Shown here: positions 6,796 through 37,938 of the stretch, in pieces
How positions within the stretch are numbered: position 1 is the stretch's first letter
Layout of the letters: each line of letters starts with the position of its first letter
NCBI GenBank assembly: GCA_003599885.1
Contig: QZKW01000086.1
Location: 1-37,938, forward strand
From: Desulfobacteraceae bacterium
GTDB taxonomy: Bacteria > Desulfobacterota > Desulfobacteria > Desulfobacterales > Desulfosalsimonadaceae
Direction: 5' to 3'
DNA length: 37,938 bases
Position numbers and translations under genes: made by a program
Notes under the pieces: model-generated
What the model saw: only the letters and a program-made list of their open reading frames with translations
Database searches by the model: none
What the model was told of the DNA's origin: nothing

Positions 6796-7683
6796 TTAAA
6801 ATTGAAATAGATCAAATCGAAAATTCTCAAGGTCAATATAAGCCATTTTGTTTCGGAGAATCTTTCCCCGTTTAAGAATAATTTTAATAACTTCCATGGC
6901 TTCCAGTCCGCCTATTATGCATGGAGTTATTGATGGGACGCCAAGAATCTTTTCCATCTGTTCTGGAATTTTTCCTCCAAGATTTTTAGTTGCATATAAT
7001 TTCTCAAGATCCATATCTTCAGGGAAAATTGTCATTACATGGCCATCAAAACCTGCCACAGCGCCATGAACCATCGGAATCCTCATTTTTTTTACAGCCC
7101 GACCAAGAACAAAGCGATCTTCTATATTATCAAGGGCATCTACAACAACGTCAGCATCTTTGATAATTTCATAAGCATTGTTTTTATAAAGTTTTTCATT
7201 TCGGGATATTATTTCAACAGCAGGATTTACTAAATTTACGGCAAGCCGAGCTTCGGAAGATTTCGGCGAGCCTATAGAGGACATCTTTGATAATACTTGG
7301 CGATTGAGGTTTGTCTCATCAAAAGTATCATGATCAACAACAATAAGCCGACCGATGCCGATTCTGGCAAGAAGCATGACAACATACCCGCCGAGACCGC
7401 CGGATCCGATAACAGAAACAGTTGATTCTGATAATTTAAGCTGTTCATCTATCGAAATAATGTCACGGTTACGAAGATATATGTGAGGACAAATACCGAG
7501 TTTTAAAGCTTCAATGTAAACCTTACGAATGGAACACCCCAATGCACCGCTGATCTCTACCGCTTTCTCGTTGCTGATAATACGGACTTTTCTGCCAACC
7601 GGATCGAAAATTTCTATTGATTTTCTATTCAGGGACTCCTGAATATCAGGCTTTATACCAGGATTCAAATTGTTGCTCCTCAT
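6796..7683 (-). CDS. E1-like adenylating enzyme (ThiF/MoeB/HesA family), no zinc CxxC motifs
   Basis: Protein of 295 aa: an unusual N-terminal domain of about 85 residues, then a Rossmann ThiF domain with GSGGLGG (93-99), VVDHDTFDETNLNRQ and VVDALDN, and the closing motif GGLEAMEVIK (258-267). Family members adenylate the C-terminal glycine of a ubiquitin-like protein (MoaD, ThiS). Only three cysteines are present (C50, C65, C255), so the CxxC zinc pairs of MoeB/ThiF are missing. A MoaD/ThiS-like protein ending in GG is encoded 12 kb upstream in the same direction and is the obvious partner. Start: ATG 7683 has no upstream Shine-Dalgarno, whereas a TTG at 7668 has AGGAG 7 bases before it. Neither tungsten nor molybdenum enzymes are in view. 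The target is unknown. Confidence 0.8.
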   Translation of the reverse strand: MRSNNLNPGIKPDIQESLNRKSIEIFDPVGRKVRIISNEKAVEISGALGCSIRKVYIEALKLGICPHIYLRNRDIISIDEQLKLSESTVSVIGSGGLGGYVVMLLARIGIGRLIVVDHDTFDETNLNRQVLSKMSSIGSPKSSEARLAVNLVNPAVEIISRNEKLYKNNAYEIIKDADVVVDALDNIEDRFVLGRAVKKMRIPMVHGAVAGFDGHVMTIFPEDMDLEKLYATKNLGGKIPEQMEKILGVPSITPCIIGGLEAMEVIKIILKRGKILRNKMAYIDLENFRFDLFQF

Positions 7684-7719: not shown

Positions 7720-9756
7720 CTATCCGATAATACAGAGCACGTCATTTTTGGAAACCGAATCCCCGCTCTTGTAATTAGTCGATTTAATCGTTCCGCTAGC
7801 CGGTGCCGGAAGTGAATTTTCCATTTTCATGGCTTCCAGAACCACAACAGAATCCCCTTTTTCGACAGAATCCCCCACTTCTTTAATGTAACTGAGAATC
7901 ATTCCGGGCATAGGGGCTATCAAAGGGATTCCTTCTGCAGCTGTAGGCTTGGATGACGGTGCAGCTTCTGGTGATTTTAGTAACGAGGGTTTTGCGGCGG
8001 AGGGCGCAGGCCGTAGGGCCGGAAGGGCTGCAACTCTCTGTGCTGCAAGCGCTTGCGGCGGAATTGCGGGTGCTGCTGGAGCAACCGGCGGTTGCGCGTA
8101 AGTGATGATCGGCTGTCCGCCCAGCTCATCAACACTGACTTCAAAATATTCATCTTCGATAAACACGTTAAAAGTTCTGGTATGCTTTCCTTTGGCCGGT
8201 GCGTCTTTAGAAGATTTTTCCACCAGCGTGCCGGCTTTTGCCTTTGCAAGGATTTCATCCGTTTTTTTGACATCTTCAAGGGTTCGGGCTTTAAGTGAAT
8301 CAGGAGGCGTTTCCTTTCCATACTTGTACATCAAGAATTTTTTTCCGGTCACCGGGTACAGTGCGTATAAAATGATGTCTTCAAGATCGGACGTCAGGCC
8401 TTTGAGTTCTTTTTTGGCTTTTTCCAGTTCAGGTTCAAGCACCTCGCCAGGCCGGCAGGTAATCGGTTTTGTACCTCTTTCATACCCTTTCAAAGCTTTT
8501 TTCTGAAGTTTTGAACTGATGGGAACCGCTGTTTTTCCGTATAATCCGTAGCACAGATCCTTGACCTGGGCCGTGATCATTTTATAGTCTTCATCGTCAT
8601 CATCAAACAATACATTGTTCACCGTCTGGGTTCCCACGATCTGGCTGGTCGGCGTGACCAGCGGAATCTGTCCGAGATCTCTTCTTACCCGGGGCAACTT
8701 GGCAAACACCTCATCCATCCGGTCCAGGGCATCCATTTCCCGCAGCTGATTAACCAGGTTAGACAACATTCCGCCGGGGATCTGGTGAAGCAAGGCGTTA
8801 ATGTCAATAATCGAAACCTTTGAGTCATCCAGAAGATGCTTGTATTTGGGAAGAACTTCTTTTTCCAGTACCACATTAATTTCGGCAAGTTTCTTCATAT
8901 CAAAACCGGTATCCCGGCTGGTGCCGATCAAAGACATCACCAACGGTTCGACTGCGGGATGTGATGTCCGATACGCATAACTGGACATACAGGTATCAAT
9001 GACATCCACACCGGCCTCCACCGCTTTTAAATGCGTCATGGGCGCCATGCCGGAAGTGAAATGGCTGTGCAGATGAATGGGGATATCCGTGTTTTCCTTC
9101 AAGGCTTTGATCAGTTCAAACGCGTCATAGGGGGCCATTAATCCTGCCGTGTCCTTGATGCAGATACTGTCTGCCTGCATTTTTTCAAGGTCCTTGGCTT
9201 TGTCGAGATAGTAATCCAGGTTGTAGACGTCGCCGCCCATGCGCGGCTCGGTTAATGAATAACAGATACATCCCTGAAAATGCTTACCGCAGTCTTTGAT
9301 CGCGGCAACCACTGTTTCAAAATTCCGGAAGTCGTTTAGTGCGTCAAAAGTTCTGAATATATCCATTCCGTTTTCTGCTGCTTTTTCAACAAATGCTTGG
9401 GCAACATCATCCCCATAGTTACGGTATCCTACCACATTTTGTCCGCGAAGCAGCATGGAAAAAGGGGTTTTCTTAAAGTAACGCTTTAAGGTGCGAAGTC
9501 GCTGCCATGGATCTTCATTTAACAATCGATGCATCGTATCAAAGGTTGCGCCTCCCCAGACTTCCACGCCCCAGAAACCGACTTCATCCATCATTTCGGC
9601 TATCGGTATCATGTCTTCGGTTCGACCTCGGGAGGCAAAAAGGGACTCATGCCCGTCCCGGAGTGTCAGATCCTGGATTTTTACCGGATTATCAGCCTTG
9701 GGGCGGTTCTCATAATCATTAATTGACTGCATCTTCACTTTAAAATGATCACCCAT
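7720..9756 (-). CDS. Biotin-dependent carboxyltransferase: 5S/PycB/OadA-type domain fused to biotinyl carrier domain
   Basis: Protein of 678 aa. N-terminal TIM-barrel carboxyltransferase domain (about residues 20-290) with LTLRDGHESLFASR, HLHSHFTSG and CMSSYAYRTSHP, then the conserved PYC/OADA segment, an Ala/Pro-rich linker, and a C-terminal biotinyl domain with EAMKMEN (biotin lysine K644). Related proteins are the oxaloacetate decarboxylase alpha chain, PycB and the 5S plus 1.3S parts of Propionibacterium transcarboxylase. Adjacent genes encode a small subunit and a methylmalonyl-CoA carboxyltransferase, and no biotin carboxylase is present, which favours transcarboxylation (oxaloacetate plus propionyl-CoA to pyruvate plus methylmalonyl-CoA). 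The ATG at 9756 is preceded by GAGGAG; an in-frame start at 9846 has no such site. Confidence 0.87.
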   Translation of the reverse strand: MGDHFKVKMQSINDYENRPKADNPVKIQDLTLRDGHESLFASRGRTEDMIPIAEMMDEVGFWGVEVWGGATFDTMHRLLNEDPWQRLRTLKRYFKKTPFSMLLRGQNVVGYRNYGDDVAQAFVEKAAENGMDIFRTFDALNDFRNFETVVAAIKDCGKHFQGCICYSLTEPRMGGDVYNLDYYLDKAKDLEKMQADSICIKDTAGLMAPYDAFELIKALKENTDIPIHLHSHFTSGMAPMTHLKAVEAGVDVIDTCMSSYAYRTSHPAVEPLVMSLIGTSRDTGFDMKKLAEINVVLEKEVLPKYKHLLDDSKVSIIDINALLHQIPGGMLSNLVNQLREMDALDRMDEVFAKLPRVRRDLGQIPLVTPTSQIVGTQTVNNVLFDDDDEDYKMITAQVKDLCYGLYGKTAVPISSKLQKKALKGYERGTKPITCRPGEVLEPELEKAKKELKGLTSDLEDIILYALYPVTGKKFLMYKYGKETPPDSLKARTLEDVKKTDEILAKAKAGTLVEKSSKDAPAKGKHTRTFNVFIEDEYFEVSVDELGGQPIITYAQPPVAPAAPAIPPQALAAQRVAALPALRPAPSAAKPSLLKSPEAAPSSKPTAAEGIPLIAPMPGMILSYIKEVGDSVEKGDSVVVLEAMKMENSLPAPASGTIKSTNYKSGDSVSKNDVLCIIG

Positions 9757-9871
9757 TGGAATCTCCTCATTAATATCGTGTGACATATAAATAAATGTTG
9801 AACGTCTGAGACGTAACAAATTTTTTGATTGATTATTTTTTTTCAAAACAGAAAATCTAAAACCATTATGA

Positions 9872-10167: not shown

Positions 10168-11721
10168 TTAAGCAGGAATATTACCATGTTTTTTCGGAGG
10201 AAGTTCCTGCCGTTTGTTGTACATGATCTCCAGCGCTTCAATTAACCGCATCCGCGTTTCACTTGGGACGATCACATCATCGATGTACCCGCGGCTTGCG
10301 GCACAATACGGATTAGAAAAAAGTTCACGGTATTCATCAATTTTTTCCTGCCGTTTGGCCTTTGGATCGTCCGCAGTGTTGATTTCTTTGCGATGAATAA
10401 TGTTTGCCGCACCGTCTGCGCCCATTACTGCAATTTCAGCACTCGGCCACGCAAAAGCGAAATCCGCGCCCAAATGTTTCGAGGACATGGCGATATATGC
10501 TCCGCCATAGTCTTTACGAACAATCACAAGCAATTTGGGAACCGTTGCTTCGGAGTAACACCATAAAAGCTTTGCGCCGTGGCGGATAATCCCACCCCAT
10601 TCCTGATTACTGCCCGGCATATACCCAGGAACGTCCGACAGGGTCAATAACGGGATATTAAAGGCATCACAAAATCGGATAAATCGAGTGGCCTTATCCG
10701 AAGCGTCAATGTCAAGACATCCCGCCATTACTTTGGGCTGGTTTGCGATAATGCCGATACTTTTTCCGTTTAAACGGGCAAAGCAGACAATAATGTTTTG
10801 CGCAAAATGGGCATGGGGTTCAAAGAATTCTCCTTTATCTACAATCTGACGGATTACCTCTTTCATGTCATAGGACTGACTCGAATTATCCGGAATTAAT
10901 GTATCAAGTTCCGGCGCAATTCGTTTCGGGTCATCACCAACAACCAGAATCGGCGGGTCTTCCATATTATTTGACGGCAGATAAGAAAGCAGCAACTTAA
11001 TATTATTGATTGTATCCTCATCGGATTCACAGGCAAAATGCGCCACCCCACTTTTTTCATTATGGGTCATTGCGCCGCCGAGATCTTCAAAAGTAATGAC
11101 CTCGCCGGTAACCGATTTAATGACTTCCGGACCGGTAATAAACATATGACTGGTATTTTTTACCATAAAAATCCAGTCGGTCATGGCCGGGGAATAGACA
11201 GCACCTCCGGCGGTGGGTCCCATGATAGCAGAAATCTGGGGGATCACACCTGAACACTGGGAATTTCGATAAAAAATTTCTCCGTAACCGCACAGGGCAT
11301 CAACACCTTCCTGGATCCTGGCTCCGCCGGAATCATTCATGCCGACTACCGGTGCGCCAGCTTTGTGTGCCATATCCATTATTTTGCAAATTTTTCTGGC
11401 GTGCATTTCGCCGAGGGAACCGGCTCTTGACGTAAAATCCTGGGCATATGCAAAAACCGGACGCTCGTCGACATATCCATAACCGGTGACCACTCCGTCG
11501 GATGGAATCTCGATATTTTCCATCCCGAAATTGACACATCGATGCTTGACAAACATATCCACCTCACGAAATGTGCCGGGATCAAAAAGCGCGTCCAGCC
11601 TTTCCCGTGCGGTTAGCTTGCCTTTTTCCTTGTGTTTGGCTACATTTTTTTCACCACCCTGCTCAAGAGCTTTACTCTTCAAGGCCTGTAATTCATAAAT
11701 TTTATCCGCAACACTACCCAT
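10168..11721 (-). CDS. mmdA: Methylmalonyl-CoA carboxyltransferase (12S / PCC beta / MmdA type)
   Basis: Protein of 517 aa, typical for acyl-CoA carboxylase beta subunits. Both crotonase-like carboxyltransferase halves are visible: LTARERLDALFDPGTF and DFTSRAGSLGEMHARKI in the N half; MNDSGGARIQEGVDALCGYG and IMGPTAGGAVYSPAM forming the acyl-CoA oxyanion hole; PGYMPGSNQEWGGIIRHGAK and DYGGAYIAMSSK in the C half. It transfers the carboxyl group between biotin and propionyl-CoA/methylmalonyl-CoA. With the 5S/biotin protein and small subunit downstream it makes a transcarboxylase-like or decarboxylase-like complex. Direction in vivo depends on the growth substrate; in a propionyl-CoA oxidiser it would form methylmalonyl-CoA. 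Confidence 0.9.
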   Translation of the reverse strand: MGSVADKIYELQALKSKALEQGGEKNVAKHKEKGKLTARERLDALFDPGTFREVDMFVKHRCVNFGMENIEIPSDGVVTGYGYVDERPVFAYAQDFTSRAGSLGEMHARKICKIMDMAHKAGAPVVGMNDSGGARIQEGVDALCGYGEIFYRNSQCSGVIPQISAIMGPTAGGAVYSPAMTDWIFMVKNTSHMFITGPEVIKSVTGEVITFEDLGGAMTHNEKSGVAHFACESDEDTINNIKLLLSYLPSNNMEDPPILVVGDDPKRIAPELDTLIPDNSSQSYDMKEVIRQIVDKGEFFEPHAHFAQNIIVCFARLNGKSIGIIANQPKVMAGCLDIDASDKATRFIRFCDAFNIPLLTLSDVPGYMPGSNQEWGGIIRHGAKLLWCYSEATVPKLLVIVRKDYGGAYIAMSSKHLGADFAFAWPSAEIAVMGADGAANIIHRKEINTADDPKAKRQEKIDEYRELFSNPYCAASRGYIDDVIVPSETRMRLIEALEIMYNKRQELPPKKHGNIPA

Positions 11722-11837: not shown

Positions 11838-12815
11838 TTAGTTTTTCAGAGAATTTAATATTTTTCTCACTGCAGCTGTAGGCGTCGATGCACCTTTTTC
11901 AACAGCCCAGCACAATTGGGGCAATAATTTTTTAACCTCGGGGATTTGATAAAACCAGTCTTTTAACCCCTCTTCCAGTAACGCCCACATCCATTGACGG
12001 GCCTGTTTTTTTCTTTTTTCTTCAAGGGCGCCAGTAGCTGACATTTTTTCATGATGGTCTAAAACCATTTCCCATACTTCTGCAATACCGGTCATATACA
12101 ACGCACTGCAGGTCAAAACCTGCGGCGACCAGTCAACAGTATCAGGTGAAAACAAATGCAGGGAATCCGCATAAACTTTTTTTGCCTGCAGCGCTTTATC
12201 AAGATTGTCCCCATCCGCCTTGTTCACAACAATTGCATCAGCCAGTTCAAGGATGCCCCGTTTAATACCCTGAAGGCCATCACCAGCACCGGCAAGCATT
12301 AACAGAAGGAAAAAATCGACCATGGATGCGACACTCACTTCAGACTGACCAACCCCGACTGTTTCAACCATGATGACATCGAAACCGGCAGCTTCACATA
12401 CGAGCAGAGACTCCCGGGTTTTGCGTGACACCCCACCTAACGTTCCCCCGGACGGAGAGGGGCGGATAAAAGCGTTGGGCTGAACGGACAGTTTTTCCAT
12501 ACGGGTTTTGTCCCCCATTATACTGCCGCCGCTGTGCGTACTGCTGGGATCAACCGCCAGAATCGCTACCCGCTGCCCGCGTTCAACCAGGAGCATTCCC
12601 AGACTTTCAACAAATGTACTTTTGCCAACACCCGGAACACCGGTAATTCCGAGCCGGACGGCTTTACCGGTAAACGGAAGGAGCCGGTCAAGCACATTTG
12701 TTATCAATTCCTGATGTGTTGGCAGTGAGCTCTCGATCAGGGTAATGGTTTTGGCAAGGACTTTGCGATTGCCGGCACAAACCCCCTGAACATAATATTC
12801 AGGATTGTTTTCCAT
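11838..12815 (-). CDS. meaB: MeaB/ArgK-type G-protein chaperone of methylmalonyl-CoA mutase
   Basis: G3E-family GTPase of 325 aa. Visible: Walker A GVPGVGKSTF, the DPSSTHSGGSIMGDKTRM segment diagnostic of MeaB/ArgK, METVGVGQSE (Walker B/switch II region) and NKADGD (guanine recognition). MeaB gates delivery of adenosylcobalamin to the mutase and protects it from inactivation. Its ATG overlaps the mutase stop (TAATG), so the two are translationally coupled, fitting a stoichiometric complex. Confidence 0.94.
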   Translation of the reverse strand: MENNPEYYVQGVCAGNRKVLAKTITLIESSLPTHQELITNVLDRLLPFTGKAVRLGITGVPGVGKSTFVESLGMLLVERGQRVAILAVDPSSTHSGGSIMGDKTRMEKLSVQPNAFIRPSPSGGTLGGVSRKTRESLLVCEAAGFDVIMVETVGVGQSEVSVASMVDFFLLLMLAGAGDGLQGIKRGILELADAIVVNKADGDNLDKALQAKKVYADSLHLFSPDTVDWSPQVLTCSALYMTGIAEVWEMVLDHHEKMSATGALEEKRKKQARQWMWALLEEGLKDWFYQIPEVKKLLPQLCWAVEKGASTPTAAVRKILNSLKN

Positions 12816-14941
12816 TATCTGTTTTCCAGCGCATTCAATACCTGGTTGGCGGACTCCGTTATCACGCTCCCCGGTCCGAACACGTTTGAGACCCCGGCAT
12901 CATATAGAAAATCATAATCAGACGGCGGAATAATACCGCCGACCACCACCAGCACATCCTCTCCGCCCTGTTCCTTCAGGGAAGCAATCAGGTCGGGAAC
13001 CAGAATTTTATGGCCAGCCGCAAGACTGGATACTCCAACTACGTGAACGTCATTTTCAACGGCCATATGTGCTGCCTCGGCAGGCGTCTGAAACATGGGG
13101 CTGATGTCCACATCAAAACCAAAATCCGCAAAAGCGGTGGCCACCACCTTGCTTCCCCTGTCATGCCCGTCCTGGCCCATTTTTGTGACCAGTATTCTTG
13201 GTCTCCGCCCTTCTTTTTCAGCGAATTCATCCGTCCGTTTTCGAAGAGATGCCATAATTTCATTGCCCTGATATTCTGATGCATAGATACCTGAAATGCA
13301 CTGACTGGTGGCGACATAACGGCCAAAAACTTTTTCCATGGCATCGGATATTTCGCCCACCGTTGCCCGTTTTCGGACGGCATCAATGCTGACTTCAAGC
13401 AAATTACCGCCGGTTTCCGCACATTTTGTTATCGCTGCAAGTGCTTGTTCAACCGCTCCATTGTCTCTTTTTTCTTTAATTTCTTTGAGTCGGGTCACCT
13501 GCTGATCACGGACTTCTGCTGATATTTCCCGGACTTCTATCGGCGCCTCATCTTCCACCTGGTATTTATTGACACCGACAATCACATCTTTCCCCTGATC
13601 AATTCTTGCCTGTCGACGCGCTGAAGACTCTTCGATTCTCATTTTCGGCATACCGGAAACAATGGCTTTGGCCATACCGCCCAATTCATCAACCTCATTG
13701 ATAATCTTGCGTGCCTCCTGAATAATTGAGCGGGTCAGCGACTCAACATAATACGAACCACCAAGCGGATCGACCACGCGCGTGACCTGGGATTCCTCCT
13801 GAACTATGATCTGCGTGTTTCTGGCCACCCGGGCAGACAGGTCGGTGGGCAGGCTGACCGCTTCATCAAAAGAGTTGGTATGCAGGGACTGTGTTCCGCC
13901 TAAAACCGCTGCGAGACACTCTATCGTGGTTCGAATGATATTGTTATAGGGGTCTTGCTGTGTCAGGCTCCAGCCGGATGTCTGGCAATGGGTTCTGAGC
14001 ATCAACGAATTCAAATTTTTAGGGCTGAACTGCTTCATCAGGTCCGCCCACAGGAATCGGGCCGCCCTGAGCATGGCAATCTCCATAAAAAAATTCATGC
14101 CGATTCCAAAGAAAAAAGACAGGCGCGGAGCGAAGTCATCAATATCCAGTCCGGCGTTCAACGCGGCTTTTACATATTCAATGCCGTCAGCAATCGTAAA
14201 TGCGGTCTGTAAAACCGAATCAGCTCCGGCCTCCATCATATGGTAGCCGCTGATACTTACCGTGTTGTACTTAGGCATATTTTTGGAGCAATAACCAACG
14301 ATGTCCGAAACAATTCGCATGGACGGTTCCGGTGGATAAATATAGGTATTGCGCGTGAGGTACTCTTTTAAAATATCATTCTGTATTGTCCCCATCAGCT
14401 TCTCTTTGGAAACCCCCTGCTCTTCGGCGGCAACGATGTAACCGGCAAGAACCGGCAGAACCGCTCCATTCATCGTCATAGAAACCGACATTTTATCTAA
14501 AGGGATACCATCAAATAATATTTTCATATCCTCGACGGAATCTATCGGAACCCCAGCTTTGCCGACATCTCCTGTCACCCTTGGATGATCGGAATCATAG
14601 CCGCGATGAGTTGGCAAATCAAATGCTACCGATAGCCCTTTCTGCCCGGCCGCAAGATTTTTTCGATAAAATAGATTTGATTCTTTTGCCGTTGAAAAAC
14701 CGGCATACTGACGGATGGTCCAGGGTCTGTTCGTATACATGCTCGCACGAACACCGCGAACAAAGGGATCAACCCCTGGAAGATTATTGATAAACTCTAT
14801 GTTCTCAAGGTCTTCGGCAGTATATAATGGTTTTATATCGATTCCTTCAGGGGTCGATTTCGTCAGTGACTCTACCGGGGTTCCCCTTAATTCTTTTTCC
14901 GCCATTTTGTGCCAGTTAAGAATATCCGCATGATCAGCCAT
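12815..14941 (-). CDS. mcm: Adenosylcobalamin-dependent methylmalonyl-CoA mutase, full-length single chain
   Basis: About 708 aa with the substrate-binding TIM barrel followed by the C-terminal B12 domain in one chain, as in MCM large subunits and unlike split IcmA/IcmB-type mutases. Specificity residues look like true [12 protein letters not shown] (Tyr where isobutyryl-CoA mutase has Phe) and [13 protein letters not shown] (the Arg that binds the substrate carboxylate). The cobalt-ligating histidine is in [11 protein letters not shown] (DxHxxG). It isomerises (R)-methylmalonyl-CoA and succinyl-CoA. The start is uncertain: ATG 14941 is in the family-like position, but TTG at 14947 has better spacing from GAAGGAG; TTG 14953 is also in frame. 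Confidence 0.95.
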
Positions 14942-15031
14942 ATTCAATATCAATGCTCCTTCTTTAAATAATTTCTGATGCTCTCGTAAAAAGATACCAG
15001 GATGGCTAAGTTAAAAGTTTCACCAATACCA

Positions 15032-15144: not shown

Positions 15145-15546
15145 TTATCGTTCACATAATTCCACAAGCACCCCGCTGGTCGCTTTGGGATGCAAAAATG
15201 CGATTTTTGCGCCGCCGGCCCCAATGCGCGGAGTTTCATCAATTAAGCGGACCCCCTTTTGCTTTAATTCAGCCAAGGAGTTCTCAATATCATCCACGCG
15301 AAATGCGATATGCTGGATTCCTTCGCCTTTTTTTTCAATATATTTGGCGATCGGGCCGTCCGGTGCCGTGGATTCCAGTAATTCCACTTCACTTCCGCCC
15401 ACCGGGAAAAAAGCGGTTTTGACTTTTTGGGCTTCCACTGTTTCAGCCCCCTCAAAATCCAACCCCAGGACATCCGACCAAAATTTTTTCCCGCTTTCTA
15501 TGCTGTTAACCGCAATACCGATATGATCAATTTTTAATATTTTCAT
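15145..15546 (-). CDS. mce: Methylmalonyl-CoA epimerase
   Basis: Vicinal-oxygen-chelate protein of 133 aa, the standard length. Two beta-alpha-beta-beta-beta modules: [18 protein letters not shown] at the N-terminus and [17 protein letters not shown] in the middle; the last strand ends GVLVELCER. The divalent metal ligands expected for the family (His near residue 6, Glu in SEVELLE, His in IQHIAF, Glu in VELCE) are present. It interconverts (S)- and (R)-methylmalonyl-CoA, linking the carboxyltransferase product to the mutase substrate, and lies just upstream of the mutase gene in transcription order. Confidence 0.93.
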
Positions 15547-15585: not shown

Positions 15586-16764
15586 TTATTTGAAATAACC
15601 AGGTCCTTTTTTTATGAGTTCATCCGCAATCAGCAATCGGCGTATCTCAGACGTGCCGGCTCCGATTTCATAGAGTTTGGCATCCCTGTAAAGCCGATTA
15701 ATGGGATATTCCAAGGTATAGCCATAGCCACCATGAATCTGGAGGGATTCGTTAACTGCGCGAGATGCGGCCTCAGCAGCAAAAAGGATTGCCGCGGCAG
15801 CCAGTTTATGGACCTCAGTCCCTTTCCCGCCGCCACTGGATTTATCAGCCAGAATGGCCGAGCGGTATACAAGTCCCTTTGCCGCTTCTATTTCTGTATA
15901 CATATTGGCCAGCTTCGCCTTTACCAGCTGAAAATTGCAGATGGGTTCACCGAACTGTTGCCTTTTTTTTGCATAATCAAGTGCCAGTTCCAAAGCGGCT
16001 TCACCAATACCTATGCTTATTCCGGCAACAACGGTTCTTTCGATGTCAAGGCCGGTCATCATCACCTTTATGCCTTCATTTACCCCTCCCACCACGTTTT
16101 CGGCCGGGACTTGACAGTTTTGAAACACAAGCTCCCCGGTGCTTGAACCACGGTTGCCCATTTTTTTTATTTTTTGGGAAACGGAAAATCCCGGAAAATC
16201 TTTTTCAATGATAAAAGCGGTAATCCCCCGGGCTCTTTTGGCCATGTCTGTTTTTGCATAAACCAGAGCGACATCTGCCTCCGGGGCATTGGTAATAAAC
16301 ATTTTATTCCCATTTAAAACAAAATACTCGCCATCTCTTTCTGCCGTTGTTCGAATACCCACGGCGTCCGACCCGGCATCCGGTTCGGTTAACCCCATAC
16401 ATCCAATTAATTCTCCGGAACAAAGTCCAGGCAGATATTTTTGTTTCTGTGACGTAGTACCGTTTCTTTCCAGATTATGGGCGCATAGATTCGCATGGGC
16501 ACCATATGACATGGCTAAGGCGGGACAGATTTTCGCCATCTGTTCTATTACAAGGGTGAAAGTAAGGGTATCATAGCCACTGCCTCCGTACTTTTCGGAA
16601 ATGCTCAAGCCCAACAGGTCGATTGCCCCCAGTTTTATCCAGATATCGGAGGGGAACTGATCGTTTTGATCAATCTCTTCCGCAAAAGGAGCGATTTCTT
16701 TGAGCATAAACTCCCGGACGTTTTTTATAATCATTTTCTGTTCTTTATTTAATTCAAAATTCAT
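15586..16764 (-). CDS. Acyl-CoA dehydrogenase, isovaleryl-CoA dehydrogenase type
   Basis: Flavoprotein of 392 aa with the acyl-CoA dehydrogenase signatures CMGLTEPDAGSD, the LNGNKMFITNA loop and IHGGYGYTLEYP. The catalytic base appears to be E242 in GLDIERTVVAG, the helix G position used by isovaleryl-CoA dehydrogenase, while the site used by short- and medium-chain enzymes reads YEIGAGTSEIRR with Gly in place of Glu. This points to a branched short-chain substrate such as isovaleryl- or 2-methyl-branched acyl-CoA. It is upstream of the epimerase and mutase genes. Electron acceptor ETF genes are not in the window. Confidence 0.87.
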   Translation of the reverse strand: MNFELNKEQKMIIKNVREFMLKEIAPFAEEIDQNDQFPSDIWIKLGAIDLLGLSISEKYGGSGYDTLTFTLVIEQMAKICPALAMSYGAHANLCAHNLERNGTTSQKQKYLPGLCSGELIGCMGLTEPDAGSDAVGIRTTAERDGEYFVLNGNKMFITNAPEADVALVYAKTDMAKRARGITAFIIEKDFPGFSVSQKIKKMGNRGSSTGELVFQNCQVPAENVVGGVNEGIKVMMTGLDIERTVVAGISIGIGEAALELALDYAKKRQQFGEPICNFQLVKAKLANMYTEIEAAKGLVYRSAILADKSSGGGKGTEVHKLAAAAILFAAEAASRAVNESLQIHGGYGYTLEYPINRLYRDAKLYEIGAGTSEIRRLLIADELIKKGPGYFK

Positions 16765-16853: not shown

Positions 16854-18533
16854 TTAAATTTTCAACATCTTCTGCCTGAACAATTTTTCAATTACTTCCG
16901 ACAGGCCGCTGATATTATCCATAAAATTTAAGTGATCTGATGGGAAATACCCTTTCAGAAACTGCTGCGTCTGCAGGTTGCATCCACAACCGATTGTAAA
17001 CACCTCGACATCGTGTGCCCGGCAGTATTTAAGGGTATCACCAAGACTGAGTCCACAATTGGCCGCCCCGTCGGTTATATGGATGATCATACTGTTTTTA
17101 TACTTTTTGTTCAGCATCATGGCCGCAGCCATGATGGCCTGGCCTGACGGTGTCCGGCCCTTTGGGATAACGGAGTATACTTTACCGCCGGAATAAAGCT
17201 GGGTGAGCACACATTGGGCACCATCCTCGGAATAGGCATAAATATCTATAAGATTTTTAAATCCTGCAGCAGCATGTGCAAGTGAGACAAAAAATTTTTC
17301 TGCGGTCTCCCATGGTCTTTTAGCGCCCGACTTTCCTCCCATTGATGATGATGCATCTGCAATGATACAAACATGCCATGGGAAATCAGATACAATAAGC
17401 TCTTTTTTTTTAAAGACCCTGCTATCCATGGGAACGCGATAAAGGCGCCGGGGATCAATCTTGCCTTCATACTGTGCTTTTTTTATGTGCCTTTTGCGGC
17501 GGCGCATAAAAAGAGACTGTTGCTGTAAAAATATTTTTTTAAGCCGGTTAACAAGCATTTCATCAGGCTGGAAATCGCTTATCGACTGGCTTTTCCTGAC
17601 GATTGTTTCCATGGATTTTGCTTCAGGCTCTTCAACCGCCACAGCAATTACATCTGTCAGATCATTCTCGCCATCCTCAAGAGCTGCCTTTAAGCGGTTT
17701 AAAAGGTCCTCTGGATCGGCGGAAGCCTGGTTTGATTCATCCGTATCCTTATTTTCATCTTCATCGTTACCTTCATCTGTCTCACCCCGGGGAGCTGCTT
17801 CGTCTCTGAAATTAATGGCATCAGGGGAAATCTGGAATTCTTCCCATTCCGAAATTTCATAAGCCACCTGGCCCCATATATCCATATAAACATCTTTTCT
17901 TCTGGACCGCCTTTCAGTAATGGAGGCTAACAATGCGATATTGGACAGCTCATCTGTAAGATGGCTCAAAATTTCAAGCGGACCGTAATAATAGGCATGC
18001 AGGTTCTTCGTATGTTCATCAAGGATTGTTGCTGCCCGCCAGATATCTGCAAGGCTGGACGGGGCGGGCGGCAGTGTTGGGTCTCTTCTGTTTTTTTCCA
18101 GTTCCAGACGCCAGTATTGTACCAGATAAAGAGACCATACAGACGATTCTGCCCGCATATTGATATAGATATCCTCGGCAGCCTCGATGACATTTTCTAA
18201 ATAACGATAAACGGAATCCGATACGGCCGGCGCCTCCTCCTGTACTTTGCCGATAACCCACTCACGCCATTCAAGCGAAGACAGACCTTCAAGTACAACC
18301 TGCCCAACCAGGGCATCGAAGGTATCGAACGAAACCGGATATTTTTCTTTGGCCATACCAGGATCAAGAAGTATAAACCGATTATCCGTTTCGACCATCC
18401 CTTTCCAGAAAACCGGTTTTACATTCCGGCCGATATAACCCGCCACCTTTCGCAGAGCACGCAAGCAGAGCATAAGCTCGGCGGTTTCATTGCCTGAACG
18501 ATTTTTTCGCCAGAAGTCCGAGTAAGTGGTCAT
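16854..18533 (-). CDS. VWA-domain protein, partner of MoxR ATPase (CoxE/CbbO/NorD-like organisation)
   Basis: Protein of 559 aa. The N-terminal 240 residues are mainly helical without a recognised domain. Residues 244-276 are a very acidic linker, and a C-terminal von Willebrand factor A domain (about 388-559) carries a complete MIDAS metal site: DASSS (393-397), T461 in GRTPSG and D488 in ITDG. Several cysteines follow (TIGCGCN). No signal peptide or membrane helix is seen, so it is cytosolic. It is encoded just downstream of a MoxR-type ATPase gene (33-base gap). MoxR/VWA pairs (CbbQ/CbbO, NorQ/NorD, CoxD/CoxE) act as activases or metal-centre maturation factors for large enzymes. The client here is unknown; candidates are the B12 mutase, the carboxylase, or the glycyl radical enzyme at the window edge. 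Confidence 0.82.
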   Translation of the reverse strand: MTTYSDFWRKNRSGNETAELMLCLRALRKVAGYIGRNVKPVFWKGMVETDNRFILLDPGMAKEKYPVSFDTFDALVGQVVLEGLSSLEWREWVIGKVQEEAPAVSDSVYRYLENVIEAAEDIYINMRAESSVWSLYLVQYWRLELEKNRRDPTLPPAPSSLADIWRAATILDEHTKNLHAYYYGPLEILSHLTDELSNIALLASITERRSRRKDVYMDIWGQVAYEISEWEEFQISPDAINFRDEAAPRGETDEGNDEDENKDTDESNQASADPEDLLNRLKAALEDGENDLTDVIAVAVEEPEAKSMETIVRKSQSISDFQPDEMLVNRLKKIFLQQQSLFMRRRKRHIKKAQYEGKIDPRRLYRVPMDSRVFKKKELIVSDFPWHVCIIADASSSMGGKSGAKRPWETAEKFFVSLAHAAAGFKNLIDIYAYSEDGAQCVLTQLYSGGKVYSVIPKGRTPSGQAIMAAAMMLNKKYKNSMIIHITDGAANCGLSLGDTLKYCRAHDVEVFTIGCGCNLQTQQFLKGYFPSDHLNFMDNISGLSEVIEKLFRQKMLKI

Positions 18534-18566
18534 CTTAAAACCTCTTGTCCGTTTTCTGACATTATT

Positions 18567-19448
18567 TTATGGCTGACCATCAGGAAGATAGGGAACATAT
18601 ACACCCGCACCGGATTTTGTCTCGTGCTCACCGGTTTCAACATGCACCGCAAGGAGTAACGATTCAAGGGCATCTCTCGATATCTGCAAACCGTAAATCA
18701 ACGCCTCTTTCAAAGATGACCCCAGAGATACCAATTCGGCAATCATCAGGCTGTGCCGGATTGAGATCACCAGACCCGCCTGTTCGTTATCCCTGATCCT
18801 TCCAATTATATTCAAAACCTGTTCCGCCTTTGTTTTATCAATCCCTGTTTTTCTGACCAAGACCTCCTTTTCCACCTCTATAGGGAGATATTCAAGATGT
18901 ATACGATAGAATCTGTCTTTAAGGGCGGCATCAAGGGTATCCGTACCTGTAAATCCATCCCCCTCGTTCATGGTGGCAAAAAAAATAACCTGGGGAGCTA
19001 CCTGGACAAAACCTAATTCATCGATCCAGATACACCGGTCTTCGGACAAAATAGAAAACAGTTCATTTAAGGCATGCGGTGACTCTGATCGATTAATCTC
19101 TTCCAGATGTATCACGCAACCCGGCGTCTGGATCGCTTCAGGGAATAAAAATTCCTTGTAAAAAGTTTCGCCGGCTTTTAATCTCTGTTGGCCAAAAAGT
19201 TCACCGGATTCGGATAACAGCCCGACTTGAAAAGTCGCCATCGGCCTTTTATAGATGCTGGCAAACTGACTGACCAGAGATGACTTGCCGCACCCCTGAT
19301 TTCCTGTAACCAGCAAATTTACCGGGTGCATTCCGGACATTTTTTCAAATCTTTCCAGGACGATCTTGTCCGCATTTAAGACAAAAAAATTCGGATCGAT
19401 GGCTGGAACTCTCAATTGTCTAAGTGTATCAACCATAATATCAAGCAC
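18567..19448 (-). CDS. MoxR-type AAA+ ATPase
   Basis: AAA+ protein of 293 aa, a typical MoxR length. Seen: Walker A GNQGCGKSS (49-57), Walker B VIHLEEI (112-118), a sensor-1 region FFATMNEGDGFTGTD and an arginine-finger/sensor-2 area ALKDRFYRIHLEY. MoxR ATPases work with a VWA protein, here encoded next, to remodel a client protein. The BssE/TutH proteins encoded with benzylsuccinate synthase are also MoxR-type, which matters because a fumarate-adding glycyl radical enzyme appears to be encoded at 37698-37938. Assignment to that BssE-like branch is inference; a tree would decide. Confidence 0.88.
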   Translation of the reverse strand: MLDIMVDTLRQLRVPAIDPNFFVLNADKIVLERFEKMSGMHPVNLLVTGNQGCGKSSLVSQFASIYKRPMATFQVGLLSESGELFGQQRLKAGETFYKEFLFPEAIQTPGCVIHLEEINRSESPHALNELFSILSEDRCIWIDELGFVQVAPQVIFFATMNEGDGFTGTDTLDAALKDRFYRIHLEYLPIEVEKEVLVRKTGIDKTKAEQVLNIIGRIRDNEQAGLVISIRHSLMIAELVSLGSSLKEALIYGLQISRDALESLLLAVHVETGEHETKSGAGVYVPYLPDGQP

Positions 19449-19522
19449 CCCCTGTATTGTTGCTGCGAATTTTGGTTAAGTACGATTTACAATAAAATTA
19501 ATCCTTCCAGGATGTTATTATT

Positions 19523-20044
19523 TTATTGTTCCCACGGGACAAATATCTCATCCGGATGATCGAAAAGATAGCCCATACGTGCCTGCGCATCTTCTCTTAC
19601 AGCATTTTGAGTAAACTCATCAAAATCTTTGGAGGCTATCCATCGCTCCAACAACAGCCCCCCCGGAAGCCACATTTCCATCGTCTCTTTTTCAGTTACC
19701 CAGGCTTTGAGTTTCACTCCGAATCGGCTCAGAATCTGCCAAATTCTGTCCCGGTCGCGCCGATCGCAATAGACCATCATCACACATTCATCAATGCCGA
19801 GATTAACTGACGGCTCTCTGTCATACTTGATAACCGGGATTTCTTTGCTCTCCACCAAAGGATCCAGCTTTATGGCCAGCTTGTCCAGCCATGATTTTTC
19901 CCCTAAAACAATCCACTTTCCCCAATATTGAAGCACTTCCCCGTTGGTCATTTCCTTCCCGTTGCGAACAGTGTATTTTTTACCGATCAAAATTTTAGGA
20001 TGAAATATAAAGATAAATTTTGATTCCGGGTTATCCTGTATCAT
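19523..20044 (-). CDS. Conserved-looking hypothetical protein next to MoxR/VWA/MoaD-like genes
   Basis: Protein of 173 aa that I do not recognise. It is soluble, rich in aromatic and charged residues, with several Trp (YWGKWIVLGEKSWLDKL, MEMWLPGG, FVPWEQ) and a central beta-rich stretch VMMVYCDRRDRDRIWQIL that looks like an alpha/beta fold. There is no signal peptide or membrane segment and no clear metal motif. It lies 31 bases downstream of the MoaD-like gene and 74 bases upstream of the MoxR gene, all in one direction, which suggests it belongs to the same functional cassette. Codon usage looks like that of its neighbours, so I take it as a real gene. Confidence 0.65.
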   Translation of the reverse strand: MIQDNPESKFIFIFHPKILIGKKYTVRNGKEMTNGEVLQYWGKWIVLGEKSWLDKLAIKLDPLVESKEIPVIKYDREPSVNLGIDECVMMVYCDRRDRDRIWQILSRFGVKLKAWVTEKETMEMWLPGGLLLERWIASKDFDEFTQNAVREDAQARMGYLFDHPDEIFVPWEQ

Positions 20045-20075
20045 GATATAAACACCTCACTTCAAGTGATAGAAT

Positions 20076-20348
20076 TCATCCGCCGGCAGCAAGGGGGATG
20101 ATACTGATTTCATCACCATCTTTAACCGTTGTCTCAAGCCCATCAAAATCCCGTAGGTTATCTCCGTTCAGGAAAATCAACACATTGGATTTGTACCCTT
20201 TCGGGTCAATCAGATGTCCTTTTACACCGGGAAATCTTTCCTCAAGACGATCAATACAGTCAAGGATTCGCTCCCCTTGGCAGGAGAACTCTGTTTCTCC
20301 GTAAAACCATCTTTTTAACGAACCTGGAATTATTATTTTAACAGGCAT
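20076..20348 (-). CDS. MoaD/ThiS-like ubiquitin-fold protein with C-terminal Gly-Gly
   Basis: Protein of 90 aa, typical MoaD/ThiS size, ending precisely in PLAAGG. The beta-grasp layout is visible: first strand KIIIPGSLKRWF, central LERFPGVKGHL-type helix region, a strand NVLIFLNGDN, and the DGDEISIIPLAAGG ending. In this family the terminal glycine is adenylated by an E1-like enzyme and becomes a thiocarboxylate or is conjugated. The candidate E1 is at 6796-7683. No moaE, thiG or tungsten oxidoreductase gene is adjacent, so the usual partners are absent. It opens the cassette with the unknown protein, MoxR and VWA. Confidence 0.85.
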   Translation of the reverse strand: MPVKIIIPGSLKRWFYGETEFSCQGERILDCIDRLEERFPGVKGHLIDPKGYKSNVLIFLNGDNLRDFDGLETTVKDGDEISIIPLAAGG

Positions 20349-20440: not shown

Positions 20441-22288
20441 CTAGAAAGACGCTTCCGCCATCTCTACGGCAGAGTCATCAAGGTTTTTTATATTTTTTAT
20501 TTTACCCATGGTAAGGGGGAGTACCGAAAAAGCGAAATGTTTGGCCAAGCGGATCTGGGCATCGTAAAAAGCCGCTTCACTGTTTTTCCGAATGAAATCG
20601 CATTTTTTTTCTTCCTCAACGTTTGCCAAACATTTTTCAAGTTTAGGAAAGGCCGCCTCTGCTCTCCACAGAAGCATCCAGGCAAGAACAACATCCCCCA
20701 TAATCTCCAAAAATGGATAAGCAAAAGAAAATGCCGTAAGAACTTTGTCCGACATGGCATTTTGAGCAAGGAACATCGCGCACCCGGCCAATTGATCAGC
20801 AGCTTTTTCCACCTCAGCCGCAATCGGAGCCAATTCTTTTATTTTTTCTGCATGGGATACCTTCTTTTTTACCTCAGCAATCAGGTTCATAAAATGTTCG
20901 CCGTTTGCCATGCCCAGTTTTCTTGCCAGAAGATCCATACCCTGAATGCCGTTGCTCCCTTCATAGATACTGAAGATTTTTGAATCCCTCAGGAGCTGCT
21001 CGACGGGGAACTCCTGTGTATAACCGTATCCACCGTGAACTTGGACTGCCTGCGTACAGACTTCAAAAGATTTATCAGCACTGTATGCCTTTACAATCGG
21101 AGTCAGCAGCTCAATCAGCCCTTGCCAGCGGGATCTATCAGCATCATTTGCAGCCGTCAGGACTTTATCAAAACAAAGGCCGACATAATAAATCAAACTT
21201 CGCATCCCAGCGACATGGACTTTCATCCACATCAACATCCGGCGTATGTCCGGATGATTGATAATGGCGACTTGCGGAGCCTCCGGATCCGCCATTTTCA
21301 GGAGATGCTTTCCCTGCAATCGCTGCTTTGCATATTCGACGGCGTACAGATAGGCACAGCTGGCCAACGAAAGTCCCTGCATACCCACGCCGAGGCGCGC
21401 TTCATTCATCATATGAAACATGGCACGCATCCCCTTGTTTTCTTCACCTAATAGTAGCCCCCTGCATTTTCCCGACGCGCCCAGAGTCACAGAACACGTA
21501 GCACTTCCATGAATTCCCAGTTTTTCTTCAATCCCGTCACACCTGACATCATTTAAATCACCGAAACTTCCATCATCATTGACCCATATTTTGGGAACGA
21601 TAAAAAGGGATATCCCTTTAGTGCCGTTGGGCGCGTCCTCAATCCTCGCCAACACAGGATGAATGATGTTTTCGGTAAGGTCCTGATCAGCTCCGGTAAT
21701 AAAAATTTTACTGCCTGTTATGCTATAGGTGCCGTCCGGATTCTTTACAGCCGAAGTGGTCAGAGCACCTACATCTGATCCCGCCTGAGGTTCCGTTAAA
21801 AACATGGACCCTCCCCATTTGCCGGTATACATTTTTTTAAGAAAAAGCGCTTTTTGTTTCTCGGTACCAAAGGTTTCAATCAACTTTCCGGCCCCGTGAG
21901 CGATGCCCGGATAAATCATGAAAGCGCAGTTTGCGCCACAAAAGTATTCAGCGCATGCATTGGCGACAATAGTAGGCATTCCCTGCCCTCCAACAGCAGG
22001 ATCATCAATGGCTGCAATCCACCCCCCTTCACCAAGAAGCCTGAAGATTTTTTTAAACGAAGCGGGAACCCTTACCTTTCCATCTTCAAATACGCAACCT
22101 TCCCGATCACCTTCGGCATTGGTGGGAAGTATCTCTTTGATCGCCAAATTCCGCGCTTCGTTGACGATCATCTTGACGGTCTTTTTGCTGAATTCATCGA
22201 ATCGTTTCGTCTGCGCAAGTTCTTCAATGCCCATCTGCTCAAAAAGAACAAAATCAATATCGTCCCGGTCCGCAATAATCTGTGCCAT
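20441..22288 (-). CDS. Long acyl-CoA dehydrogenase with C-terminal extension (about 600-aa class)
   Basis: Flavoprotein of 615 aa with normal core motifs (MFLTEPQAGSDVGAL, GSKIFITGAD, VQVHGGYGYTQEFPVEQLLRD) and a catalytic Glu at E443 in SIYEGSNGIQG, the position used by short- and medium-chain enzymes. It has an N-terminal extension and a helical C-terminal domain of about 120 residues, as in the DmdC-like/600-aa acyl-CoA dehydrogenases. Substrate cannot be read from the sequence; relatives range from fatty acyl-CoA to methylthiopropanoyl-CoA. It is the first gene of the long minus-strand run and faces a divergent promoter region with an inverted repeat. Confidence 0.86.
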   Translation of the reverse strand: MAQIIADRDDIDFVLFEQMGIEELAQTKRFDEFSKKTVKMIVNEARNLAIKEILPTNAEGDREGCVFEDGKVRVPASFKKIFRLLGEGGWIAAIDDPAVGGQGMPTIVANACAEYFCGANCAFMIYPGIAHGAGKLIETFGTEKQKALFLKKMYTGKWGGSMFLTEPQAGSDVGALTTSAVKNPDGTYSITGSKIFITGADQDLTENIIHPVLARIEDAPNGTKGISLFIVPKIWVNDDGSFGDLNDVRCDGIEEKLGIHGSATCSVTLGASGKCRGLLLGEENKGMRAMFHMMNEARLGVGMQGLSLASCAYLYAVEYAKQRLQGKHLLKMADPEAPQVAIINHPDIRRMLMWMKVHVAGMRSLIYYVGLCFDKVLTAANDADRSRWQGLIELLTPIVKAYSADKSFEVCTQAVQVHGGYGYTQEFPVEQLLRDSKIFSIYEGSNGIQGMDLLARKLGMANGEHFMNLIAEVKKKVSHAEKIKELAPIAAEVEKAADQLAGCAMFLAQNAMSDKVLTAFSFAYPFLEIMGDVVLAWMLLWRAEAAFPKLEKCLANVEEEKKCDFIRKNSEAAFYDAQIRLAKHFAFSVLPLTMGKIKNIKNLDDSAVEMAEASF

Positions 22289-25539: not shown

Positions 25540-26415
25540 ATGAGTGTTTTCGTTAATTCCGATACGCGACTGCTTGTTCAGGGAATAACCGGGAAGGAAG
25601 GTCAATTCCATACCCGTCAATGTGTCACCTATGGCACCAATGTTGTTGCCGGTGTGACACCTGGAAAAGGTAATCTGAATATAGACGGCATTCCTGTATT
25701 TAACTGCGTCAATGACGCTGTTAAAAAAACACAGGCTAACTGCAGTATGATTTTTGTCCCGCCGCCATTCGCTGCGGATGCGATTATGGAATCAATAGAT
25801 GCCGGTATTGAATTAATCGTTGCTATTACCGAAGGAATTCCCGTGCTGGACATGATGAAGATTAAACAGATGCTTAACCATGCAGGCTCCCGTTTGATCG
25901 GGCCGAACTGCCCTGGGATTATTACGCCCGGCCAGGCAAAAATCGGCATTATGCCGGCCCAGATACACAAGCCAGGAGGTCCTATTGGTGTGGTATCGAG
26001 ATCCGGAACGCTCACCTACGAGGTGGTATTCCAGCTCACTGGCCAAGGAATTGGACAAACAACATGCATCGGCATCGGCGGTGATCCGATTAACGGTACC
26101 AATTTTATTGACTGCCTGGATGCATTTGAAAATGATCCTGAAACAGAAGGTATTGTAATGGTGGGTGAAATTGGAGGAAACGCGGAAGAAAATGCCGCCG
26201 AATATATCAAATCCAATGTGACCAAACCTGTTGTCGGATTTATTGCTGGTATAACAGCTCCTCCCGGCAGGCGCATGGGGCATGCTGGTGCTATTATAAG
26301 CGGCGGCAGCGGAACTGCACAGGCGAAAATTGAAGCCTTAAAAAAAGCAGGTGTCCATATTTGTAAAAATTTAGGAGACATCGGACGGATGTGTGCGGAT
26401 GTCTTCGTGTCATAA
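25540..26415 (+). CDS. sucD: Succinyl-CoA synthetase alpha subunit
   Basis: Protein of 291 aa. N-terminal CoA-binding Rossmann domain with [15 protein letters not shown] and [13 protein letters not shown]; the ligase domain has [19 protein letters not shown] and the phosphohistidine H248 in [17 protein letters not shown]. It forms the catalytic heterodimer with SucC, transferring the phosphate from succinyl phosphate to the nucleotide. Confidence 0.96.
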
Positions 26416-27120: not shown

Positions 27121-27133
27121 ATAAGGAATGGTT

Positions 27134-36397: not shown

Positions 36398-36457
36398 GAC
36401 CTGCTCCTTTTTATAGCAGGCTACTATCTTAAACCATTGTCCGGAATTTGGGGTCCA

Positions 36458-37697: not shown

Positions 37698-37938
37698 TTA
37701 CAGCCCCACAACCGTTCTCTGAATAATGTTATCCTGGGTTTTGCGGCTGATATCCACAAAGTGCGCGCTGTATCCCGCTACCCGTACAATCACTTCCGCA
37801 TATTTTTCAGGGTCTTTCTGGGCCGCACGCAGGGTCGTATCATCCACCATATTAAACTGCACGTGATCCAAACCCAGATCCGCCCAGGTCTCCATGTAGG
37901 CGCTCCAGAGCTTATACCCTTTTTCACCGGCCAACTGG
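37698..37938 (-). CDS. Glycyl radical enzyme, C-terminal part; fumarate-adding (alkyl-/benzylsuccinate synthase) type likely
   Basis: The last 80 or so residues of a protein that begins beyond the right edge (the frame is open to the window end). The glycyl radical motif is RVAGYSAHF, with the radical glycine 25 residues from the C-terminus. The preceding WADLGLDHVQFNMVDDTTLR and AAQKDPEKYAEVIV are, from memory, close to the corresponding part of BssA/AssA X-succinate synthases and less like pyruvate formate-lyase (which has a VSGYAVRF-type motif) or diol dehydratases. These enzymes add a hydrocarbon to fumarate via a thiyl radical and need an activating radical-SAM enzyme, not in view. Substrate (n-alkane, aromatic or other) cannot be fixed from this fragment; the branched-acyl and methylmalonyl genes nearby favour alkanes. 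Confidence 0.78.
   Translation of the reverse strand, partial: QLAGEKGYKLWSAYMETWADLGLDHVQFNMVDDTTLRAAQKDPEKYAEVIVRVAGYSAHFVDISRKTQDNIIQRTVVGL

Follow-up and report, generated by a model that had tools for sequence, protein, structure and literature searches.

A gene cassette of a MoxR-type ATPase, a VWA protein, a ubiquitin-fold protein and the unnamed family U173 as a probable accessory module of fumarate-adding glycyl radical enzymes

What do a MoxR-type AAA+ ATPase, a protein with a von Willebrand factor A (VWA) domain, a 173-residue protein of no named family and a small MoaD/ThiS-like protein do together in a run of methylmalonyl-CoA genes? The question is raised by a 37,938-nucleotide stretch from a Desulfobacteraceae bacterium (GenBank assembly GCA_003599885.1, contig QZKW01000086.1; hereafter the window, G000:C43:1-37938), which is part of a 4.5-Mb genome of 90 contigs and at whose end the contig stops. 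As claimed in a preliminary description of the sequence and borne out by the list of open reading frames (ORFs), the four genes are consecutive and co-directional on the minus strand at 16854-20348, where they are transcribed in the order MoaD-U173-MoxR-VWA with intergenic gaps of 31, 74 and 33 bp. They encode the MoaD/ThiS-like ubiquitin-fold protein (90 aa, ending in GG; 20076..20348), the 173-aa protein, termed U173, which forms the cassette core (19523..20044), the MoxR ATPase (18567..19448) and the 559-aa VWA protein (16854..18533), all on the minus strand. Acyl-CoA dehydrogenase genes stand on both flanks, at distances of 92 and 89 bp, and U173, MoxR and MoaD have one match each in their own genome. 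The cassette is no chance artefact, given that U173 is conserved at 38-98% identity and yields a confident AlphaFold2 model (predicted local distance difference test, pLDDT, 92.9).

We propose that the cassette serves the fumarate-adding glycyl radical enzymes (GREs), i.e., the alkyl- and benzylsuccinate synthases (together XSS). The co-occurrence of the genes, their linkage, and the sister relation of the MoxR/VWA pair to the pair linked to XSS all point this way, and together these comparisons make XSS a highly likely client; among the clients that the preliminary description had considered, it is the fumarate-adding enzyme that the comparative evidence picked. The cassette probably assists in building XSS, switching it on or repairing it, and we infer for it a role in activation. 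Taken as a whole, the model of an accessory module of fumarate-adding GREs is on balance the probable explanation, its parts being of unequal strength as set out below.

Co-occurrence was assessed in 395 genomes of the phylum. The XSS query, which scored two GRE candidates per genome so that the XSS count is a lower bound, gave a bimodal result, with at least 20 of the 395 genomes at 60% identity or more (one of them a fragment) and no other listed match above 38%. A profile search detected U173 in 15 of the 395 genomes and a single-sequence search in 9 of 98 relatives, the own genome being counted in both, while 16 loci, including those of Desulfosarcina alkanivorans and Smithella, came from a scan of named genomes. 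At E <= 1e-30 the window MoxR matched 23 of the 395 genomes, namely the 20 XSS genomes listed plus G138, G167 and G385, and these three are precisely the U173 genomes without XSS at 60% among the matches listed. The enzyme of G385 is of the benzylsuccinate synthase (BSS) type, and the GRE of G167, which is damaged, belongs to an XSS sister clade; in G138, U173 has an activase gene and a MasB-like gene nearby, but the stretch showed no GRE. U173 and BssE-like MoxR are thus found jointly in 15 genomes, MoxR alone in 8, U173 alone in none and neither in 372 (Fisher 9e-22, a p value that ignores relatedness); for U173 and XSS among the matches listed, the corresponding numbers are 12 jointly, 3 with U173 alone, 8 with XSS alone and 372 with neither (Fisher 2e-15, relatedness again ignored). 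Moreover, of the 12 sampled families with BssE, 9 have U173, and no sampled family without BssE has it. Outside the 395 genomes, the U173 genomes G077 and G046 have a BssB-family protein (PF18512) over the Pfam cut-off, and the GREs of G046 and G084 fall inside the XSS clade. As a general XSS marker PF18512 was rejected, since it exceeded the cut-off in just 1 of the 395 genomes and in 3 of 12 chosen ones, probably because alkyl-type enzymes have MasB-like subunits instead. U173 was absent from the 72,556 plasmid records searched, and plasmid XSS, tried as a path to named bss clusters, gave distant GREs only, every one below 60% identity.

Linkage was counted in 32 genomes or records with U173 after merging duplicates, several of the contigs being short. 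A MoaD gene is no more than 1.5 kb from U173 in 28 of them, MoxR within 3 kb in 19, and a GRE, activase or MasB-like gene within 10 kb in 14; hence homologues are not scattered and the four genes do travel together, whereas the E1-like gene, expected to accompany them, is near (within 6 kb) in just 13. When neighbouring ORFs of at least 90 aa were clustered without preset families in 37 stretches of 31 genomes or records (leaving out three stretches chosen for MoxR, one of which, L163, is on a contig without U173), the largest clusters were VWA (21), MoxR (20), MoaD (17), E1 (13), GRE (10) and activase (9), and further ones were a radical S-adenosylmethionine (SAM)/SPASM protein (8), a response regulator (7), acyl-CoA dehydrogenase (6), methylmalonyl-CoA mutase (MCM; 5) and MeaB (4); a cluster of 8, which appears to consist of ORFs antisense to U173, was not counted. 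These counts bear on another client suggested in the preliminary description, the B12-dependent mutase, or on the biotin carboxyltransferase of the same (alkyl)malonyl-CoA branch. In the window and in G019 the cassette does stand in a single run with MCM, MeaB and MmdA, and the recurrence of MCM and MeaB near U173 (5 and 4 of 31 genomes) speaks against XSS as the client, although it arises partly from XSS loci carrying MCM/MeaB. However, GRE and activase are the commoner neighbours, no MCM match was found on the examined stretches of L109, L020, L042 and L105, and XSS loci without U173 (L114, L117-L120) carry MCM/MeaB too, so that a client in this branch appears improbable.

The clearest locus is L109 of G385, where the genes are arranged as activase-GRE-BssB-VWA-MoxR-MoaD-U173-E1. 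With gene starts assigned mechanically, there is a 4-bp overlap between MoxR and MoaD, followed by spacings of 18 bp (MoaD to U173) and 2 bp (U173 to E1), the distance from VWA to MoxR being 391 bp; the GRE matches TutD (1590 bits) and the small subunit BssB_TutG PF18512 (3.7e-40). L020 shows the row activase-MasB-like-MoxR-VWA-MoaD-U173, and GREs of the XSS sister clade have U173 near in L105 (1164-7300), L103 and L108 and, at 6.5 kb, in L098. Possibly, MoaD, U173 and E1 could instead be carried along as passengers in hydrocarbon-degradation islands while having a role of their own in stress response, transport or regulation. The Smithella/Syntrophaceae-type cassettes, which on the stretches examined lie away from XSS genes and so also count against an XSS client, would suit such a role, as would the MoaD-U173-E1 sets without adjacent MoxR/VWA in G077, G167, G281 and G303. 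Set against this are the nearly gapless joining of MoaD-U173-E1 to MoxR in the BSS-type operon of G385, the restriction of U173, among the families sampled, to those with BssE, and the adjacency of U173 to XSS-sister-clade GREs, in L105 with another AAA+/VWA pair; we consider the passenger role to have a small chance. L105, L103, L042 and L043 share an ATPase cluster (Mg_chelatase/AAA_5 in the L042 copy; the GRE fragments of L042 and L043 are outside the tree), and L105 has an additional 400-aa VWA protein, so that U173 is accompanied there by a further AAA+/VWA pair of another kind. A radical SAM/SPASM protein of about 370 aa is found repeatedly, either between VWA and E1 or next to U173 or XSS-type genes (L021, L023, L024, L026, L102, L111; also L038, L041, L103, L162); the best NCBIfam models for the L021 copy were AhbD, TIGR04053 and NirJ2, all below cut-off.

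What sort of machine would the MoxR/VWA pair be? The MoxR protein matches Pfam AAA_5 (2.4e-20), has the Walker A motif GNQGCGKSS and a Walker B-like IHLEEIN, and finds midasin and then NorQ (6.9e-14) among its PDB sequence matches. Its listed start is GTG at 19448; the in-frame ATG four codons later, at 19436, is more likely the true one. In the VWA protein, which matches Pfam VWA_2 weakly (0.0012, under the cut-off), the metal ion-dependent adhesion site (MIDAS) and acidic linker reported earlier are both present: residues D393, S397, T461 and D488 are invariant across 16 aligned rows, and the linker falls in a region of pLDDT <50 (233-275, 280-287) of a predicted model with an overall pLDDT of 78.8 and a predicted TM score (pTM) of 0.48. 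The closest PDB fold to this model is the NorQ-bound VWA domain of NorD in NorQD (1.8e-7, structurally aligned at about 14% identity).

In a tree of 33 MoxR proteins, two clades were separated with support of 100/100, L109 being a long branch. Clade I, equated with BssE by gene position (a named BssE sequence being outside the comparison), comprises the copies directly after the GRE in L114-L120 together with those of L109 and L020. The window MoxR belongs to clade II and not to the clade of the L109 BSS-type operon and L114-L120; it is 53-60% identical to clade I copies, and its VWA partner is 27-32% identical to clade I-type VWA rows. Clade II copies are also near XSS-type genes in L022, L100 and L107 and, with MoaD-U173 standing after clade I pairs in L109 and L020, the division between the two sets is not a clean one. 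By sequence, then, the window pair and the BssE/BssF-type pair located next to XSS genes are sister lineages, and at least one MoxR copy is present in 31 of 31 chosen XSS/U173 genomes, many of which have one of each kind by identity. The suggestion of an undescribed system therefore fails for the MoxR/VWA pair; for its combination with MoaD and U173, we found no description in the open-access literature covered. We also considered that the window MoxR, as the only match in its genome, might be the sole BssE-like protein there, and rejected this because relatives have a second copy: it occurs in G001 and G002, of the same genus, and in G019, of the same family (53-55% identity), next to XSS-type genes in G002 and G019, and its absence from the own genome is not firm, given that the own XSS locus is split between contigs.

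Two side observations concern the motifs of this pair. All five MoxR proteins checked (window 18567-19448, L020, L109, L117, L162) have IHLEEINR, with E-E, as Walker B, which normally reads D-E. Four of five XSS-linked-type VWA rows (L017:899-2656, L019:14152-15870, L020:2922-4640, L022:1301-3106) contain an HExxH-like motif in the N-terminal domain (e.g., THEALHRTEW), and the eleven cassette-type rows, that of the window included, are without it and keep the glutamates; this domain may possibly hold a lost or vestigial metal site.

The window pair resembles BssE/BssF (TutH), in which a MoxR AAA+ protein and a VWA protein are likewise encoded beside XSS genes, and differs in its clade II MoxR, in a VWA protein without the HExxH-like motif and in travelling with MoaD and U173. 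BssE has been called essential, and disruption of bssF abolished growth on toluene (PMC5874301). Other reports have TutH/IbsE co-expressed as putative chaperones (PMC10239695) and term the functions in the BssE/BssF context uncertain (PMC7285207). NorQ/NorD is a further parallel, in the pairing itself as well as in the best PDB fold match, although its client is nitric oxide reductase; to our knowledge, no ubiquitin-like protein, U173 or E1 accompanies it. In NorQD, a NorD linker needed for metal insertion is reported to be remodelled by NorQ (PMC13036017). We regard it as likely that MoxR/VWA remodels XSS: a MoxR hexamer, with the VWA protein as the substrate arm as in NorQD, would pull on the XSS complex and thereby open, assemble or reset it. 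A remodelling machine would suit an enzyme that has to open for installation of the radical and in which small subunits gate the opening, as described in two reports on XSS (PMC12358834, PMC10239695).

The function of the remaining genes is the least secure part of the model. The small protein is ThiS-like, as had been recognized, scoring 45.3 bits against a Pfam cut-off of 22.5 (1.3e-11), and its C-terminus is GG in most aligned rows and AG in L039, L098, L106 and L109. Its possible partner in the window is a divergent E1-like adenylyltransferase of the ThiF/MoeB type (6796..7683, minus strand; ThiF 3.4e-53). U173 itself remained unrecognized, as described before: the window copy had no match in Pfam or, as the one copy scanned there, in NCBIfam, and its best PDB sequence (E 0.073) yields no PDB sequence family, while 20 relatives run against Pfam at a lax threshold gave scattered weak matches, the best (0.0035) being for one member and to an unrelated family. 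The AlphaFold2 model of U173, built from 15 sequences (pTM 0.86), has as its top Foldseek match the human protein 1ztp (probability 1.00, TM 0.39, E 1.4e-3, 20% identity), which we take to have the Bles03/C11orf68-type fold, followed by weak PII-like and eIF4E matches; at most, the modelled fold resembles 1ztp distantly. U173 thus appears to be an unnamed family by Pfam, NCBIfam and the PDB, the unexplained bssG-L products of denitrifiers being outside the comparison.

The terminal glycine of MoaD and the presence of an E1 imply adenylation, and we postulate that the E1-like enzyme adenylates the MoaD-like protein at its C-terminal glycine, with U173 acting as the dedicated partner of MoaD; in other systems the genetic position of U173 is held by MoaE and ThiG. 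MoaD would then most likely be a sulfur (thiocarboxylate) carrier that matures or repairs XSS or its iron-sulfur subunits during the remodelling cycles. MoaD-MoaE-MoeB, ThiS-ThiG-ThiF and TtuB-TtuC-TtuA are sulfur relays of this sort, and the window shares with them a ThiS-fold protein that ends in glycine and an E1 of the ThiF/MoeB type; unlike in those relays, the partner is U173, unmatched by the Pfam and NCBIfam partner models, and the genes are XSS-linked. TtuA is the PP-loop ATPase partner in the Ttu relay, and a candidate counterpart (motif named by eye) occurs in just two distinct loci, L018 and L107. Specifically, a 275-aa protein with the PP-loop motif SGGTDS is encoded near U173 at L018:17090-17917 and L107:3189-4016, the two copies being 62% identical in distant genomes.

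Alternatively, MoaD could be a ubiquitin-like tag that E1 and U173 place on oxygen-cleaved, dead or mis-assembled XSS (or its activase), which MoxR/VWA then extract and recycle. SAMP/UbaA and Urm1 are protein tagging systems with a ThiS-fold protein and an E1-like enzyme as in the window, MoaD weakly matches the NCBIfam SAMP1 and Urm1-like models, the E1 and ubiquitin-like genes adjoin AAA+/VWA genes, and quality control would fit the 8 of 20 XSS genomes among the matches listed that lack U173. However, both scores fall below the family cut-offs (SAMP1, 42.4 against 60; Urm1-like, 30.3 against 70), no E2, E3 or protease look-alike was noticed, in prior scans or by eye, among the neighbour clusters present in at least four genomes, and no conjugates are known here, so that we hold tagging to be unlikely. 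A sulfur relay is favoured over it because MoaD falls short of the SAMP and Urm1 models and because of the PP-loop ATPase of L018 and L107, which is a thin argument, and on these sequence comparisons the two are indistinguishable. The assignment of MoaD/U173 to a sulfur relay is accordingly tentative, and equally so is the wider idea that the GRE is matured, modified or repaired by a dedicated E1/ubiquitin-fold/U173 relay acting in concert with AAA+/VWA remodellers.

MoaD and E1 also resemble the MoaD/MoeB families in such a way that synthesis of a molybdenum or tungsten cofactor or of thiamine comes to mind, and the models matched by the Smithella-type radical SAM protein are many and include those for MoaA and the tungsten-cofactor maturase, both far under their cut-offs. 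Among the neighbours scanned by Pfam (part of all neighbours), no molybdenum- or tungsten-cofactor families were found, so MoaD is not confined to the company of tungsten cofactor genes, and U173 follows BssE without exception in the sample; a cofactor role is very improbable. A tungstate transporter upstream of the Smithella-type MoaD, suggested by the size of six conserved genes, was rejected: in Pfam, four of the six match acyltransferase, ACPS, MlaE and, weakly, MlaD, and two match nothing.

Several findings weigh against the cassette as a module of XSS. As noted, 8 of the 20 XSS genomes among the matches listed are without U173, and in 6 of these 8 a MoxR/VWA pair stands directly after the GRE (L114-L120); conversely, 18 of the 32 U173 genomes or records lack an XSS-type gene within 10 kb, several contigs being short. 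In the window, U173 is 17.7 kb from its XSS-type gene and 11.8 kb from the E1-like gene, which is without the two CxxC pairs, presumably zinc ligands, that are present in L021, L098 and L109, and the own genome has one more ThiF-type match. Nor is MoaD-U173 tied to clade II, since the L109 and L020 cassettes have clade I MoxR, and G179, whose MoxR goes with clade II by identity (72%), has no U173. Furthermore, in the accessible parts of the respective reports, BSS was activated in vitro by IbsAE (PMC12222630), having been made with TutH (PMC10239695), and Escherichia coli with mas genes forms alkylsuccinate, the helper genes included being unstated there (PMC12358834); the terms MoaD, von Willebrand, ATPase and chaperone are all absent from the main text of the latter. 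Formation of alkylsuccinate in E. coli and activation of BSS in vitro would make the ubiquitin-like module at most accessory there, and MoaD/U173/E1 are not universally required for XSS. In the open-access literature, covered mostly by titles and the openings of abstracts, we found nothing that connects XSS with MoaD, E1 or a U173-like protein; hence, BssE/BssF being already known, the gene set with MoaD, U173 and E1 would be the new part.

Fumarate addition is a main route of oil degradation without oxygen, and BssE/BssF have long been described without an explanation of how they act. Our findings place them in a wider module, in which a MoaD-like protein, U173, often E1 and sometimes a radical SAM/SPASM protein travel with the sister pair. 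Since U173 was never found without a BssE-like MoxR in the 395 genomes, it could be used to recognize hydrocarbon degraders from their genomes. If the proposed relay is true, it would be the first case of a ubiquitin-like system associated with radical enzymes, and U173 a new family of carrier-protein acceptors or ligases.

The remainder of the window fits this picture. At its end (37698..37937, minus strand), cut by the contig end, lie the last 79 residues of an alkylsuccinate-synthase-type GRE (Gly_radical match), and contig C33 starts with 364 residues of a GRE N-terminal part (G000:C33:1-1092), with an activase-like gene upstream. We infer that these ends belong to one gene, whose middle is absent from the assembly. 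The C33 part is 64% identical to the XSS of L027, which matches MasD over its full length (1393 bits, against 506 for TutD) and whose small subunit matches MasB (2.8e-30). On the minus strand with the cassette are encoded two acyl-CoA dehydrogenases, one upstream in the same run (615 aa, 20441..22288) and one downstream (392 aa, 15586..16764), a methylmalonyl-CoA epimerase-like protein (15145..15546) and a methylmalonyl-CoA-mutase-type protein (12815..14953), both named by eye, the MeaB GTPase (11838..12815; PF03308, 4.9e-112), an MmdA-like carboxyltransferase (10168..11721; Carboxyl_trans 1.1e-195, TIGR01117 below cut-off) and, by family scans, an OadA/PycB-like carboxylase with a biotin domain (7720..9846). 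The plus strand carries a small protein of cluster C14 (23046..23522; weak PNPOx_N below cut-off), whose relatives stand beside BssF-type genes in XSS loci, a succinyl-CoA synthetase-type pair (24332-25495 and 25540-26415; Pfam scan) and, by family scans, a succinate dehydrogenase/fumarate reductase-type flavoprotein and iron-sulfur protein (27128-29062, 29059-29814), which could possibly regenerate fumarate. A CobA/CobO/BtuR-family protein is encoded as well. In the known pathway, alkylsuccinyl-CoA is rearranged and decarboxylated and fumarate is regenerated. The mutase-like, epimerase-like, MeaB, carboxyltransferase, biotin, succinyl-CoA synthetase, succinate dehydrogenase and CobA/CobO/BtuR proteins fit this route. 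With the XSS C-terminus at the window end, the setting is anaerobic hydrocarbon degradation by fumarate addition; the methylmalonyl-CoA genes noted at the outset are indeed present, but as one part of it rather than as the setting itself.

Two minor observations concern the surroundings of XSS genes. A C16 protein (weak GAF, HATPase_c) and a receiver-like C17 protein (by eye) recur beside MoxR/VWA in XSS genomes (L017:3651-5908, L022, L100/L138, L174, L135/L180) and may possibly form a hydrocarbon-sensing pair. In the window, an integrase-core transposase, which we take to be of the IS3 type, and a small ORF (35184-36068, 36104-36400) lie between the XSS C-terminus and the remainder of the window, and in other genomes BssE/BssF-type genes are found at the place of this transposase.

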